Shown: piece after piece, positions 9,481 through 16,619 of the stretch
Layout: each line of letters opens with the position of its first letter
Position numbering within the stretch: the first letter of the stretch is position 1
IMG/VR virus record: IMGVR_UViG_3300042923_000568
Span: 1-43,212 of that record
From: a virus
DNA length: 43,212 nucleotides
Strand: one strand, 5' to 3'
Translations under genes and position numbers: made by a program
Notes under the pieces: generated by a model
What the model was told of the DNA's origin: nothing
Databases searched by the model: none
The model's input: the letters and a program-made list of their open reading frames with translations, nothing else

Positions 9481-9651
9481 ATGGAACGGATAGATAAAGC
9501 GAAACTGCTGGAATGGTTAAATAATCGGCTGTGGGACGGCAATCTACCGCCTCCTCCGGGAATATACCACGCTTATACAGACTTAAAGAGGCACATTGAA
9601 TGTGGCACTTTCGATCCAGATCCAAAGGTAGAGAAACAGAAACAAGACTAG
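9481..9651 (+). CDS. Small hypothetical protein
   Basis: A 56-aa protein from ATG 9481 after GAGGAGAATCCCC. An N-terminal helix (KLLEWLNNRLWD) precedes a proline-rich turn (LPPPPGIYHAY). The family is not recognised. A copy of the dispersed hairpin element follows directly. Confidence 0.6.
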   Translation: MERIDKAKLLEWLNNRLWDGNLPPPPGIYHAYTDLKRHIECGTFDPDPKVEKQKQD

Positions 9652-9654
9652 AGA

Positions 9655-9720
9655 TACGGCCCTATTCGGCCTCCGTTTCACTGGGTGGTTCGGTCGGGTC
9701 GGAGAAAAGACGAAGGAGGT
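9655..9720 (-). repeat. Dispersed hairpin element copy 4 (minus orientation)
   Basis: On the minus strand it reads CCGACCCGACCGAA, an inner CAC/GTG stem, CGGAGGCCGA and AGGGCC. It is 27/33 identical to copy 1 in the segment abutting the ribosome site. It lies directly ahead of the DndC-like gene. Confidence 0.6.
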
Positions 9721-9725
9721 ACAAC

Positions 9726-10912
9726 GTGGACTACAAACAAAAAGCCATGATCGCCATGGGCGAGACGCTTAAAGCTTATACAGATGGCGATATGTCGAGA
9801 CCATGGGTTATAGCATATAGCGGCGGAAAGGACTCGACGGTAGTGCTGGATATCGTGTTGCGTTCCTTGATGCAGCTAAAGCAGTACAACCCATCAATGT
9901 TGAAACGGGAGTGCATTATCGTGACGGCCCAAACGCACATGGACTTTGTCACCGATCCACTTAAGCAAGAAGAATTATCGAAAATACAAAGGCTTCTCGA
10001 TAAGTCGAAATTGCCGGTCAAGATCAAAGAGGTTAGCGCACCAATAGACCAAAGCTTCATGTTCCTTGTAGTCGGTAAGGGATACCCGTTGCCGAAGAGC
10101 AAGAAAAATAGATGGTGTACGGAACGACTTAAAATTCTCCCTTCTGATCGTGCGGTAAAGGAACTGAATCCAGAATATCGGATTCTTGGTGTGAGGCTGA
10201 GTGAGTCGGCAGAACGTCGCAGCAGCATCGAAGGAAGACAAACGTCAGAATTCTATAGCGACAATTCGTTCATGCCAATAGTTAATTTCACACTTGAAGA
10301 TGTATGGTCGTATCTCCTTAGTAACGGAATGTGTTGGGGGGATGCAGAGAAATTGAGCCAACTTTACAAGGATGCTACCGGAGAATGTGGACTTCGGCAA
10401 AAGAAAGCCGGTCGTGATGAGAAGACTGACGATCCATGTGGCGCACGTACAGGGTGCATCAGTTGCCCAGTCGTAACGATCGACAAAAGCTCGAACGAAT
10501 TCGCCAAGCATCACCCGCAGTTACAGCCGTATGTGGATTGCGAAACACCATTATTGAGATGTACAAAGACCCTCGCAACAAGGCCGGCCGAATGCGCGAT
10601 GGAACGGTGCTGGAATACGGCCAAGGCACATTCACGGTCAAAGCCCGCATGAAGCTGTACACGCTCATTAAACAAGCCGAGGCTGACAATGAGGAATTGT
10701 GCAAACGATATGGGGCCACGCCGCAAAAGCTGATTTACAGCGATGAGTTGGACCAGCTGATCAAGAAGCAATGGCAACAGGACCTGATCGAGCGGCCGTG
10801 GGTTGAGGATGCAATGGAAGTCGGAATGTACTACGAAAAGAAGATTAAGGGACTCGACGCGTATGAACTCATCATCAATTTCCACCATGAGAGCTTTAGT
10901 GCGACACCGTAA
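9726..10912 (+). pseudogene. DndC-like PAPS-reductase/ATP-pyrophosphatase family gene with a frameshift
   Basis: The first frame starts at GTG 9726 (GAAGGAGGT upstream). It has the ATP-pyrophosphatase loop SGGKDST at residues 32-38 and cysteines suited to an iron-sulfur cluster (RWCTERLK, then CGARTGCISC). This matches DndC-type sulfurtransferase proteins, which work in DNA phosphorothioation and occur alone in many phages. After about 10540 this frame degenerates and stops at 10652. The expected C-terminal half (LRNTIIEMYKDPRN, GPFT-like GTFTVKARMKLY, DELDQLIKKQWQQD) continues in another frame to 10912. A single-base indel near 10540-10548 explains both. No slippery heptamer is visible, so a mutation or sequencing error is more likely than programmed frameshifting. 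Repaired, it would encode about 395 aa, a normal length. Confidence 0.8.
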
Positions 10913-12275: not shown

Positions 12276-12440
12276 TTACTCCCCTTCCTTCTCCGCAGAC
12301 ATATCCTTAACGTATTCTCGCAGAATCTTGTTGATCATCGAACTAACGGACCGGTCATCTTTTTCGGCCAGTGTCGAAATAACCTCGTAAACATCCGGAT
12401 CCAGTGTCAGAGTGGTCCGAACCTTGTTAAATTGCTTCAT
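12276..12440 (-). CDS. Ribbon-helix-helix regulator (minus strand)
   Basis: A 54-aa protein, the only leftward gene inside the early operon. It begins MKQFNKVRTTLTLDPDVYEV, a classic RHH beta strand with alternating residues, followed by two helices (VISTLAEKDDR, SVSSMINKILREYVKDM). Dimers of such proteins bind short DNA repeats. The start is ATG 12440-12438 with TAGGTGAT upstream. It is divergent from a second RHH gene at 12558, with inverted and direct TATGATA repeats between them. It therefore probably represses that divergent promoter, its own, or both. Confidence 0.8.
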   Translation of the reverse strand: MKQFNKVRTTLTLDPDVYEVISTLAEKDDRSVSSMINKILREYVKDMSAEKEGE

Positions 12441-12490
12441 ACTTCATCACCTAGTATAGGATTATATCACACTAATTTTTTTTAGCTAAA

Positions 12491-12531
12491 ACTATCATAT
12501 TGTATATACAAAAGTATGATAGTATATGATA
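12491..12531. promoter_or_regulatory. Operator/promoter region of the divergent RHH pair
   Basis: ACTATCATA (12491-12499) and TATGATAGT (12515-12523) form a perfect 9-bp inverted repeat. A further TATGATA (12525-12531) lies 10 bp, one helical turn, after the first. Short repeats spaced by a turn are typical binding sites for ribbon-helix-helix dimers. The AT-rich sequence could also hold the promoter for the 12558 gene. Confidence 0.65.
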
Positions 12532-12557
12532 CAATGTGATTAAAGGAGGCGGTTAAG

Positions 12558-12707
12558 ATGAAAGAAACGCAAACGGTTCTGATGCGAGTTGACCGCAAGT
12601 TTTTGGAGCGCATCGACCATAAGTGGAAGTCGGAGAACTTCAAGACTCGCACCGAATATATTATGTTCCTGATCCGCAACGATGTAGCCAACAACAAGGC
12701 CGTTTAG
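12558..12707 (+). CDS. Ribbon-helix-helix protein (plus strand)
   Basis: A 49-aa protein with a strong AAAGGAGGCGG site ahead of ATG 12558. The beginning KETQTVLMRVDRKFLERID is a beta strand leading into the first helix, and SENFKTRTEYIMFLIRND matches the second turn and helix of RHH folds. It is distinct from the 54-aa protein opposite. It is the first gene of a transcript that continues into the replisome organizer after 11 bases, so it may set the timing of replication genes. Confidence 0.75.
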   Translation: MKETQTVLMRVDRKFLERIDHKWKSENFKTRTEYIMFLIRNDVANNKAV

Positions 12708-12718
12708 GTGGTGGTACA

Positions 12719-13543
12719 GTGTCAGGATGGATTAAGATTCACCGAAAAATGCTGGACAACCCTATCGTTTGTAAGGACAGTGAATACCTTGCAGTGTGGA
12801 CTTATATTCTTCTAAATGCAACGCATAAAGAGCATCCATCAGTGTTTAAGGGAAACAAGATTATGCTGAAACCTGGGCAGCTCATAACCGGCAGGAAGAC
12901 CATTTCCGAGAAATTCAAGATTTCAGAAAGTAAAGTGCAACGGATACTAAAACTGTTCGAAAGTGAACAACAGATTGAACAACAAAACGGCAATAAAAAC
13001 CGCTTAATAACAATACTTTCGTGGGATGACTACCAAGGAGCTGAACAACAAGATGAACGCGAAATGAACAACAAACGAACAACAACTGAACAACAACTGA
13101 ACACATACAAGAATGTAAAGAAAGAGAAGAATGAAAAGAAAGAAGATAAATATAAAGAACTCATTGTCGAGATAGTGAACTATCTCAACACGGCAACCAA
13201 TAAAAATTATTCCTCTGATACGAAGGAGACTATCAAACTCATTTCTGGAAGACTTACAGAAGGTAGAACCATCGAGCAGTTCAAACACGTGATCGATGTT
13301 AAAACCGAAGAGTGGTTAGGGAACGAAAAGATGGAGCGATGCCTTAAACCCAACACGCTCTTTGCTCAAAGCAATTTCGAATCATACATGAATCAAAAGC
13401 GAGTAATTCGAGGAGGTGGAAACGGTGCAAAGTATCAAGGAGTCCCTCAAGGGGTTCGATATGGAGAAAATAAAACAAAAGGCGGCTTTGATGAGGCAGG
13501 GTGGCAGTCCCTCATCGTCGGATCGCCCCAAGTACGCATGTGA
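12719..13543 (+). CDS. Phage replisome organizer protein
   Basis: A 274-aa replication initiator starting at GTG 12719, with TAGGTGG upstream. The N-terminal 105 residues form a DnaD-like winged-helix domain: WIKIHRKMLDNPIV, VWTYILLNATHKEH, LKPGQLITGRKTI, SESKVQRILKLFE. A Gln/Asn-rich linker follows (residues 83-130). The C-terminal domain (about 150-250) matches the conserved Phg_2220_C family: IVEIVNYLNTATNKNY, KLISGRLTEGRTIEQF, GNEKMERCLKPNTLF. Such proteins bind the phage origin and recruit the helicase loader, encoded next with a 119-base overlap. The linker-coding DNA carries six GAACAACA iterons, a likely origin. Confidence 0.9.
   Translation: MSGWIKIHRKMLDNPIVCKDSEYLAVWTYILLNATHKEHPSVFKGNKIMLKPGQLITGRKTISEKFKISESKVQRILKLFESEQQIEQQNGNKNRLITILSWDDYQGAEQQDEREMNNKRTTTEQQLNTYKNVKKEKNEKKEDKYKELIVEIVNYLNTATNKNYSSDTKETIKLISGRLTEGRTIEQFKHVIDVKTEEWLGNEKMERCLKPNTLFAQSNFESYMNQKRVIRGGGNGAKYQGVPQGVRYGENKTKGGFDEAGWQSLIVGSPQVRM
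12965..13095 (+). repeat. Six GAACAACA iterons, putative phage replication origin
   Basis: Exact copies of GAACAACA start at 12965, 12977, 13043, 13066, 13077 and 13088. The last three are 11 bases apart, about one helical turn. They fall in all three reading frames of the replisome organizer gene (encoding EQQ, NN or TT), which argues for selection on DNA rather than on protein. Location inside the initiator gene mirrors lambda O. Confidence 0.65.
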
Positions 13544-14351
13544 TAAGTGCAAGGATACCGGTACCATAAACGAGTTCGAATGGGTTGATTCTGGAATCCT
13601 GCTCAAGGATGGAACGTACATGAAGATCGAACGTGCAAAAGTTGATCCACATACCGGAAATCCACCTCTATGCGAGTGTCATTATAAAAAAGTGTTCGAA
13701 AAGTATCATGCAGCTCTAGGGATGGCCGAAGAAGAGCGAAAGCATACTTTCAAAAACGCGGTAATCGATGATGAGAACGGATCACATTACGAAATCGCGG
13801 TGGAGTTCGTAAGAAACATAGACAAGCACCGTGAGCGTGGCACATGGATTTACATATTCGGAGACGAGGAACGAGCTAGGGAGTTCTCATGCAGCGCGTA
13901 TGGGACGGGCAAGACATATCTCATGAACTGTATTGCGAATGCTCTCGACCATCGCCGCATACCATCCCTGTACGTGAAAGAGGAACAGATGTTTAGCGAT
14001 ATCAAATCGACGTACAACCGTGGAAGTGAAGAAACAGAGTCCGAAGTGCTTGATCGGTATTACAAGATTCCAATCCTTTTCATTGACGATCTTTTTAGCG
14101 CCCAGTACAACAAGGAATGGGCAGAATCGAAGCTTTTCGGGATACTCGACAACCGGATGCGTGAGAAGAAAATAACGATCATCACAAGCAACTATGCTGC
14201 AAATCGGATTAGCGAACGACTACCAATCAACGGCGCAAAGATCGCAAGCCGAATTATCGGGCAATGTGTGCAAATGGAGATGATCGGAAAAGACAGAAGA
14301 TTCGAGCAAGCGCGACGGAATTATGATCACATGAAGGAGTGGGCCGGATGA
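13425..14351 (+). CDS. DnaC-like AAA+ helicase loader
   Basis: A 308-aa ATPase from GTG 13425, placed by GGAGGTGG (GTG 13416 is the alternative). An N-terminal zinc-binding segment (CDKCKDTGTI near residue 39 and CECH near residue 81) precedes the AAA+ core. Walker A is SAYGTGKT with Ser in place of the usual first Gly. Walker B is LFIDDLF, and sensor 1 is TIITSNYA. This is the DnaC/DnaI-type loader that puts the host replicative helicase on the origin. It overlaps the replisome organizer by 119 bases, which ties their expression. Its stop overlaps the next ATG. Confidence 0.88.
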   Translation: MQSIKESLKGFDMEKIKQKAALMRQGGSPSSSDRPKYACDKCKDTGTINEFEWVDSGILLKDGTYMKIERAKVDPHTGNPPLCECHYKKVFEKYHAALGMAEEERKHTFKNAVIDDENGSHYEIAVEFVRNIDKHRERGTWIYIFGDEERAREFSCSAYGTGKTYLMNCIANALDHRRIPSLYVKEEQMFSDIKSTYNRGSEETESEVLDRYYKIPILFIDDLFSAQYNKEWAESKLFGILDNRMREKKITIITSNYAANRISERLPINGAKIASRIIGQCVQMEMIGKDRRFEQARRNYDHMKEWAG

Positions 14352-16074: not shown

Positions 16075-16260
16075 ATGTGGGCCGTGTTCCAAGGTAAATA
16101 CCGCGTAACGAAGTATCCCATGACCGAGTACGACGCTCGGAATGAAAAGAGCAACTTGGATAAGGTACTATCGAATCTCGAAGTCAGGGAGATTAAACCA
16201 GTCGAGCCGGCGAAACCGCCGAAAAGGAAAATGAAGCGCTGGGGGGTGAAGCTGGGATGA
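16075..16260 (+). CDS. Small basic hypothetical protein
   Basis: A 61-aa protein from ATG 16075 with GAAAGGAAG upstream. It opens with a short beta-like segment (WAVFQGKYRVTKYPMTEYDA) and ends in a proline/lysine-rich tail. Its stop overlaps the ATG of the RusA gene, so translation is coupled. Confidence 0.65.
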   Translation: MWAVFQGKYRVTKYPMTEYDARNEKSNLDKVLSNLEVREIKPVEPAKPPKRKMKRWGVKLG

Positions 16261-16619
16261 AGCTTACGATTCCGGGAACGCTACCGGGTACAAACGAGAT
16301 TCTAGGTGCGAGTAACAATAACCGGCACGTCTACAATGAGTTAAAGCGGAACTATACGAACCTAGTAGCCCTTTGCGCGAAACAAGCGAAGTTACCGGAG
16401 CTACCGCCGGCCGATTATACAATCACATGGTATTGTCCGAACAAGCGCAAGGATAAGGACAATGTGATGGGTGGACAGAAGTTCATATTCGATGGACTGG
16501 TAGAGTCCGGCCGGCTTCGAAATGATGGTTGGAACGACATCGGCGATATTTCACACAGGTTCAGGGTGGACAAGCAGAACCCGCGGGTCGAAGTTGAAAT
16601 ACAAGAGGTGAGCGCATGA
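16257..16619 (+). CDS. rusA: RusA-like Holliday junction resolvase
   Basis: A 120-aa endonuclease of the RusA family that cleaves four-way DNA junctions made during phage recombination and replication. The N-terminal strand IPGTLPGTNEIL and the catalytic region RKDKDNVMGGQKFIFDGL carry the conserved acidic residues D66, D68 and D79. They are followed by the expected NDGWNDIGDISHRF. The length is exactly typical. It overlaps the preceding and following genes by 4 bases each. Together with ERF and SSB it completes the recombination set. Confidence 0.92.
   Translation: MKLTIPGTLPGTNEILGASNNNRHVYNELKRNYTNLVALCAKQAKLPELPPADYTITWYCPNKRKDKDNVMGGQKFIFDGLVESGRLRNDGWNDIGDISHRFRVDKQNPRVEVEIQEVSA

Follow-up and report, generated by a model that had tools for sequence, protein, structure and literature searches.

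Several phages are known or proposed to carry a replication origin inside the gene of their own initiator. Gene 38 of SPP1 contains oriL, whose direct repeats are bound by the gene's own product, gp38, and adjoin an AT-rich unwinding element; theta replication of SPP1 has been reconstituted (PMC6316719). Gene 18 of phage L contains six imprecise 11-bp repeats, TGTCCAACGGA, which were proposed to form its origin (PMC8022706). Similarly, the replisome organizers ORF13 of TP901-1 and Rep2009 of Tuc2009 bind direct-repeat regions in their own genes, and these regions were identified as origins (PMC8965321). The ORF20 initiator of Staphylococcus phage 80alpha was proposed to carry its origin (PMC5499656), and in lambda O/ori-lambda the iterons and an AT-rich region lie inside the initiator gene, with the loader gene adjacent (PMC3349717).

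We analysed a stretch of viral DNA of 43,212 nucleotides (IMG/VR virus record IMGVR_UViG_3300042923_000568, positions 1 to 43,212; hereafter the window), in which an initial annotation had proposed an origin candidate within the gene at 12719-13543. The results below lead us to assign a probability of about 90% to the reading that the segment from 12965 to ~13190 is a phage replication origin inside its own initiator's gene, with a predicted initiator-iteron mechanism. The features of the locus are as follows (L numbers denote homologous loci, of which L004-L056 were gathered by protein searches).

12719 to 13543, + strand: initiator (replisome organizer) gene, 274 aa, GTG start
12758 to 13033, + strand: winged helix-turn-helix domain, aa 14-105 (AlphaFold2, pLDDT ~95)
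12926 to 12964, + strand: recognition helix, aa 70-82 (AlphaFold2)
12974 to 13015, + strand: wing strands, aa 86-90 and 95-99 (AlphaFold2)
12965 to 12972, + strand: iteron 1, GAACAACA, coding for E83-Q84-Q85 (same offset in L004, L006-L008, L048, L050 and L051)
12977 to 12984, + strand: iteron 2, GAACAACA, coding for E87-Q88-Q89 in the first wing strand (exact copy; homologs; AlphaFold2)
13043 to 13050, + strand: iteron 3, GAACAACA (EQQ), where the linker array begins (exact copy; homologs)
13055 to 13062, + strand: degenerate iteron GAACGCGA, where a 12-bp spacing places the next copy (L007, L008 and L009 have the exact octamer)
13066 to 13073, + strand: iteron 4, GAACAACA read as N-N (exact copy)
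13077 to 13084, + strand: iteron 5, GAACAACA read as T-T (exact copy)
13088 to 13095, + strand: iteron 6, GAACAACA (EQQ; exact copy)
13099 to 13103, + strand: terminal half-iteron GAACA in 11-bp register (sequence; register test over 64 contexts)
13107 to 13122, + strand: element ACAAGAATGTAAAGAA (viral-stretch count versus control, two frames, codon bias)
13100 to 13189, + strand: probable DNA unwinding element, AT- and purine-rich and of low computed stability
13416 to 14351, + strand: DnaC-like helicase loader gene (PHROG 50, 9.1e-49; IstB and DnaA-type AAA+ ATPase domains)

The product of gene 12719 matched PHROG 2514 (DnaD-like helicase loader; 2.7e-36) and PHROG 428 (replication initiation protein; 8.9e-34). 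Its C-terminal part is a PF09524 (Phg_2220_C) domain, with 87.7 bits against a cut-off of 27, and the protein also matched TIGR02220 with 85.2 bits against a cut-off of 66.65; PF09524 is present in SPP1 gp38 too, and by these two C-terminal matches the product is of the SPP1 gp38 type. The N-terminal domain scored 20.5 bits against PF09681 (Phage_rep_org_N), for which the curated cut-off is 23.3. No match to the Pfam lambda-O family was found, and with its 11-bp repeat unit the locus falls outside the lambda O type. AlphaFold2 confidence was low outside the winged helix, and a PDB fold search with the product returned generic winged helices only, none at E ≤0.001; therefore, no solved relative is claimed for it.

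The gene contains six exact copies of the octamer GAACAACA, all on the + strand, with starts at 12965, 12977, 13043, 13066, 13077, and 13088. The residues initially annotated are correct: four copies are read as E-Q-Q, one as N-N, and one as T-T, their offsets from the GTG start (246, 258, 324, 347, 358, and 369) placing them in frames 0, 0, 0, 2, 1, and 0, and the last three lie 11 bp apart. The spacings between the six are 12, 66, 23, 11, and 11, and the 23-bp step between iterons 3 and 4 contains the degenerate copy GAACGCGA, which is intact in L007, L008, and L009. The array is accordingly wider than the six copies first described, with this degenerate seventh copy and a terminal half copy. 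Its placement between the two domains of the protein holds for four copies, which lie in the interdomain linker, but the first two are inside the winged helix: because the AlphaFold2 model has a helix at residues 70-82 and a strand at 86-90, iterons 1 and 2 fall where the recognition helix ends and in the first wing strand, and the remaining iterons encode the linker. Over both strands of the whole window, GAACAACA was found 12 times compared with 1.93 expected, and 0 of 100 shuffles reached 12; this count was set aside as too weak to stand alone, single octamers being dispersed over other parts of the window. Synonymous-codon shuffles of the gene with the protein fixed gave six or more copies in 19 of 20,000 trials (mean, 2.4 copies), and shuffles of its codon order gave six copies in 0 of 20,000 trials. 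The excess of GAACAACA over what the protein requires is significant but modest in this single gene, and it is the comparative evidence that makes the case strong.

We computed duplex stability as a nearest-neighbour sum over standard-table values. The 60 bases at 13100-13159 are 77% AT and 83% purine, and only a fraction of 0.002 of the 60-mers in the window is equally or more unstable (0.008 for 13130-13189). Low-stability DNA lies directly 3' of the array in the window and in most homologs: in 40 homologs, the 60 bases after the array had a median at the 3rd percentile of stability within the gene. On computed stability, the 13100-13159 stretch adjoining the array is likely the unwinding element. 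The loader gene overlaps the 3' end of the initiator gene, and the locus combines the parts of an intragenic-iteron module, namely a winged-helix initiator, direct repeats in its gene that are conserved as DNA, an adjacent stretch of low computed stability, and a loader gene next to the initiator. Elsewhere in the window, a RusA-type endodeoxyribonuclease (PF05866) is encoded at 16257-16619, downstream of the replication genes, and the gene at 9600-10652 has a phosphoadenosine phosphosulfate reductase domain (PF01507, 1.1e-11) and resembles phage DndC-like proteins. The other extremely unstable stretch near the initiator, at 12480-12540, is very AT-rich, contains TATCATA/TATGATA inverted repeats that are probably operators or a promoter region, and lies between two small divergent genes (12276-12440 on the - strand and 12558-12707 on the + strand) resembling ribbon-helix-helix proteins; the product of the latter has a weak NikR match.

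Downstream of the iterons, the order, kept in register, is half-iteron and then (A)ACAAGAATGTAAAGAA. Compared with the 18-mer AAACAAGAATGTAAAGAA, the window has one mismatch, a T at 13106, upstream of ACAAGAATGTAAAGAA. This 18-mer was found in at least 120 viral stretches (viral_contigs), compared with 5 for the reversed 18-mer as a control. Among the matches listed, 64 of the 68 unique contexts were, by our reading of the listing, initiator genes, and in 63 of those 64 the best upstream period was an 11- or 12-bp repeat. The element is translated in two frames, TNKNVKN and HKQECKE (NKNVKN in 54 and KQECKE in 10 of the 64 listed contexts), and the best words of these contexts comprise 49 distinct ones; therefore, the element is independent of the word and conserved as DNA. 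In the homologs from protein searches, TNKNVKN has the fixed codons ACA AAC AAG AAT GTA AAG AAT, Lys is AAG in 39 of 42 cases within the element versus 126 of 391 elsewhere in the same genes, and the two Asn residues show opposite choices for one amino acid (AAC in 15 of 16 for the first and AAT in 17 of 18 for the second). The last seven bases before the element matched the bases 11 positions upstream at 4.9 of 7 positions in the 64 listed contexts, compared with 1.3-2.9 at other lags, and relatives that use another word close their array with half a copy of that word. Among 398 genomes sampled from the phylum, a single exact 20-mer was found, in the Paenibacillus genome with L048, and none for the control.

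The element often continues as 9-bp AAGAATGNN units; at 13123-13160 and in many homologs, it is followed by 9-bp in-frame units AAGAATGAA/AAGAATGAT (Lys-Asn-Glu/Asp), and SPP1 has AACAATGAT. The complementary strand of the element is pyrimidine-rich, with several 5'-TnnT-3' motifs. Two TnnT motifs characterise the single strands to which B. subtilis DnaD binds (PMC10201434); the element resembles this DnaD recognition element in these motifs only, and they are frequent in any T-rich strand. A DnaA-trio pattern was also considered for the downstream element and dropped, since no consecutive trios were seen by eye. With somewhat less than even confidence, we regard this as a second origin element common to initiator genes, which might be a strand-opening or single-strand loading signal or, alternatively, a junction at which winged helix and iterons are exchanged. 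No description of the (A)ACAAGAATGTAAAGAA element was found in the open-access literature searched.

These neighbours of the array bear on an alternative in which the initiator does bind the iterons, but chiefly to control its own gene or keep copy number down and not at an origin. Plasmid iterons can do both, and the sites here lie within the initiator's own transcription unit. Against this, the low-stability stretch and the common element adjoin the array in most relatives, as in SPP1 oriL (PMC6316719), and no second GAACAACA cluster was found anywhere in the window with up to one mismatch. We consider mainly regulatory iterons unlikely, at under one chance in ten.

The origin reading draws its strength from the homologs. 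Searches were run with single proteins, a family-wide alignment being too diverse for locus search, and used short peptide patterns including EQQIEQQN, which favours EQQ-bearing relatives but not particular codons or out-of-frame copies. In close homologs, the exact octamer was found at identical offsets (+246, +258, +324, (+336), +347, +358, and +369) in three frames, or in some cases in the same pattern shifted by six, the locus start being two codons later; comparison of the octamer in related phages, which the initial annotation had proposed, thus supports reading it as part of a candidate origin. Distant homologs keep the layout (one or two wing copies, a gap of ~66 bp, and an 11-bp array) with different words, most of which occur in several frames, and the spacing 12-66-12-11-11-11 or a close variant recurs with several of them. 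The words and their loci are as follows.

GAACAGCA: L010, L014, L059
GACCAGCA: L054
GAAACGCA: L017-L034
AAACGACA: L046, L055
TGTCCATC: L016
GAACAGCTACC: L025, L026
ACAAACAA: L035
ACAACAAAT: L060

The wing copies are missing or weak in some homologs (L017, L044, and L036), and the number of repeats is higher or lower in some relatives. The linker residues differ along with the word (e.g. NADETEVKRKRNADETQ; SKRQSKRHTERQTNDRQTTCKRHAND); because the layout is kept with other words, the amino acids follow the DNA. Consistent with this, the array matched itself at lag 11 at a mean of 19.3 of 22 positions in 22 dereplicated homologs, compared with 9.1 of 22 in another part of the same genes and 14.8 of 22 after synonymous shuffling, and lag 11 was the best lag in 16 of the 22. 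A period of 11 bp is not a multiple of three, and a repeated peptide therefore cannot be its source.

Silent codon choice points the same way. In the EQQ copies of eight GAACAACA-group genes, 32 of 35 first Gln codons are CAA, whereas in the three GAACAGCA genes L010, L014, and L059 CAG is used in 12 of 12 (p = 9e-9 between the groups). No significant difference was seen at the second Gln codon, whose last base falls beyond the octamer (p = 0.29), and little difference among the remaining Gln codons of the two groups (p = 0.05); Glu within the copies is GAA in 46 of 47. Because the genes are related, these p-values overstate independence. In step with this switch, the out-of-frame copies shift from NN to NS and from TT to TA in the GAACAGCA genes. 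CAA and CAG are mixed in L011, L015, and L053, so the sixth base of the octamer may be free there (A or G). The initial annotation had named homologs that keep the Gln/Asn residues without the octamer as the evidence that would speak against it; this check did not refute the reading, the codons switching silently to GAACAGCA.

The same observations make it highly improbable that the linker is simply a low-complexity Gln/Asn-rich segment under protein-level selection, with the DNA repeat as its by-product. Four of the six copies do share one frame and read EQQ, and synonymous shuffles of the gene still average the 2.4 copies noted above; however, the period does not fit codons, a single word is translated as EQQ, NN, and TT, linker residues differ in homologs whose word differs, and silent switching tracks the out-of-frame copies, so that L010, L014, and L059 contradict a protein-level origin of the repeat. 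The claim that the DNA word goes beyond protein repeats was therefore borne out, by the 11-bp period, the silent codon switching, and the change of words across homologs. Functionless tandem duplication by slippage has equally little probability in our estimate: short tandem repeats arise easily and relatives vary in copy number, but the octamer stays constant and the 3-4 bases separating its copies vary, relatives at 65-80% N-terminal identity retain the offsets, and in many families the wing copies, 66 bp away, have the word of the linker array.

Recognition helix and word were compared by Mantel analysis in 22 homologs, treated as exchangeable, whose domain portions preceding that helix differ by more than 45%. 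Word similarity correlated with helix similarity (r = 0.44), and the correlation persisted once the remainder of the domain was controlled for (partial Mantel r = 0.43, p = 0.0005), whereas word versus the rest of the domain given the helix yielded r = -0.10. L017 and L044, for instance, have the helix SKVRRFL and the word GAAACGCA in common. The link is not absolute, since L047 and L056, whose recognition helix is another one (WSRNTVRKYL/F), also have GAACAACA repeats, at 12-bp spacing and all in one frame. Natural chimeras separate the two halves of the protein: L016, L025, L026, L039, and L043 have C-termini of 77-93% amino acid identity with mostly dissimilar winged helices and different words (the exception being the near-identical pair L025/L026), and conversely the window shares its word and a similar winged helix with L005, L006, and L007, at a C-terminal identity of 22-30%. 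Judging by these chimeras, the word travels with the winged helix and not with the C-terminus. That the word covaries with the recognition helix and moves with the winged helix leaves very little room for another reader, be it a host factor or the ribbon-helix-helix-like products of 12276-12440 and 12558-12707, even though these small putative DNA-binding proteins are encoded directly upstream.

Most likely, then, to go by these comparisons, the 12719 protein binds the iterons to begin genome copying. In the mechanism we propose, monomers would occupy the GAACAACA iterons in head-to-tail order, using the recognition helix of their N-terminal winged helix, at two sites in the wing-coding DNA and at four or five in the array, where the spacing of 11-12 bp is about one helical turn. 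The assembled filament could strain and open the adjoining 13100-13189 stretch, and the C-terminal domain together with the DnaC-like loader (13416-14351) may then recruit the replicative helicase. Binding, opening, and helicase loading are here inferred from the analogy with SPP1 gp38/oriL.

Overall, the origin of an uncultivated phage could be placed to ~200 bp from sequence alone. The rule that emerges (one word present in three frames, phasing at 11 bp, agreement of word and helix, and exchangeable cassettes of winged helix and iterons) would make origins predictable in many phage and prophage genomes where the initiator has no annotation beyond DnaD-like. Because reader and text sit together in every gene, the family is a natural data set for the recognition code between winged helices and their sites, and the chimeric loci L016, L025, L026, L039, and L043 could be used for tests of binding specificity. 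The shared element beside the iterons is a testable candidate for a strand-opening or helicase-loading signal. No description of a systematic covariation of word and helix, or of exchange of winged helix and iteron cassettes, was found in the open-access literature searched.

Origins inside initiator genes are already known, and the arrangement in the window, as compared here, is that of SPP1 gene 38/oriL and phage L gene 18. The initial annotation had drawn a parallel with lambda O and several Gram-positive phages; the likeness to phages with an origin in the initiator gene stands, but lambda O, whose four 18-bp iterons are longer, of another type, and separated by spacers, is not the closest. 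The lactococcal proteins TP901-1 ORF13 and Tuc2009 Rep2009 are likened to the window by description, not by sequence. Staphylococcus phage 80alpha ORF20 and its relatives have another word, and their C-terminal domain is DnaB_2, not Phg_2220_C; in staphylococcal phage HSA84, the DnaD-like gene contains seven 11-bp-phased ACAACAAATCA repeats and the common element. Salmonella phage L gene 18 resembles the window in its 11-bp repeats inside the initiator gene and differs in its word, its C-terminal part, and an adjacent DnaB-type helicase gene, and no wing copies were detected in it; as a positive control, its TGTCCAACGGA repeats were recovered by the same script, at a locus annotated rep_origin. 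SPP1 gene 38/oriL (gp38, G38P) was the other positive control, in which the same analysis recovered 11-bp repeats and a low-stability 3' flank. SPP1 uses a different word, initiates also at a second origin, oriR, and has a helicase and G39P loader of its own, whereas in the window the loader is DnaC-like and the octamers form no second cluster; like the window, SPP1 gene 38 joins an N-terminal DNA-binding part, a C-terminal PF09524 domain, and direct repeats within the gene.
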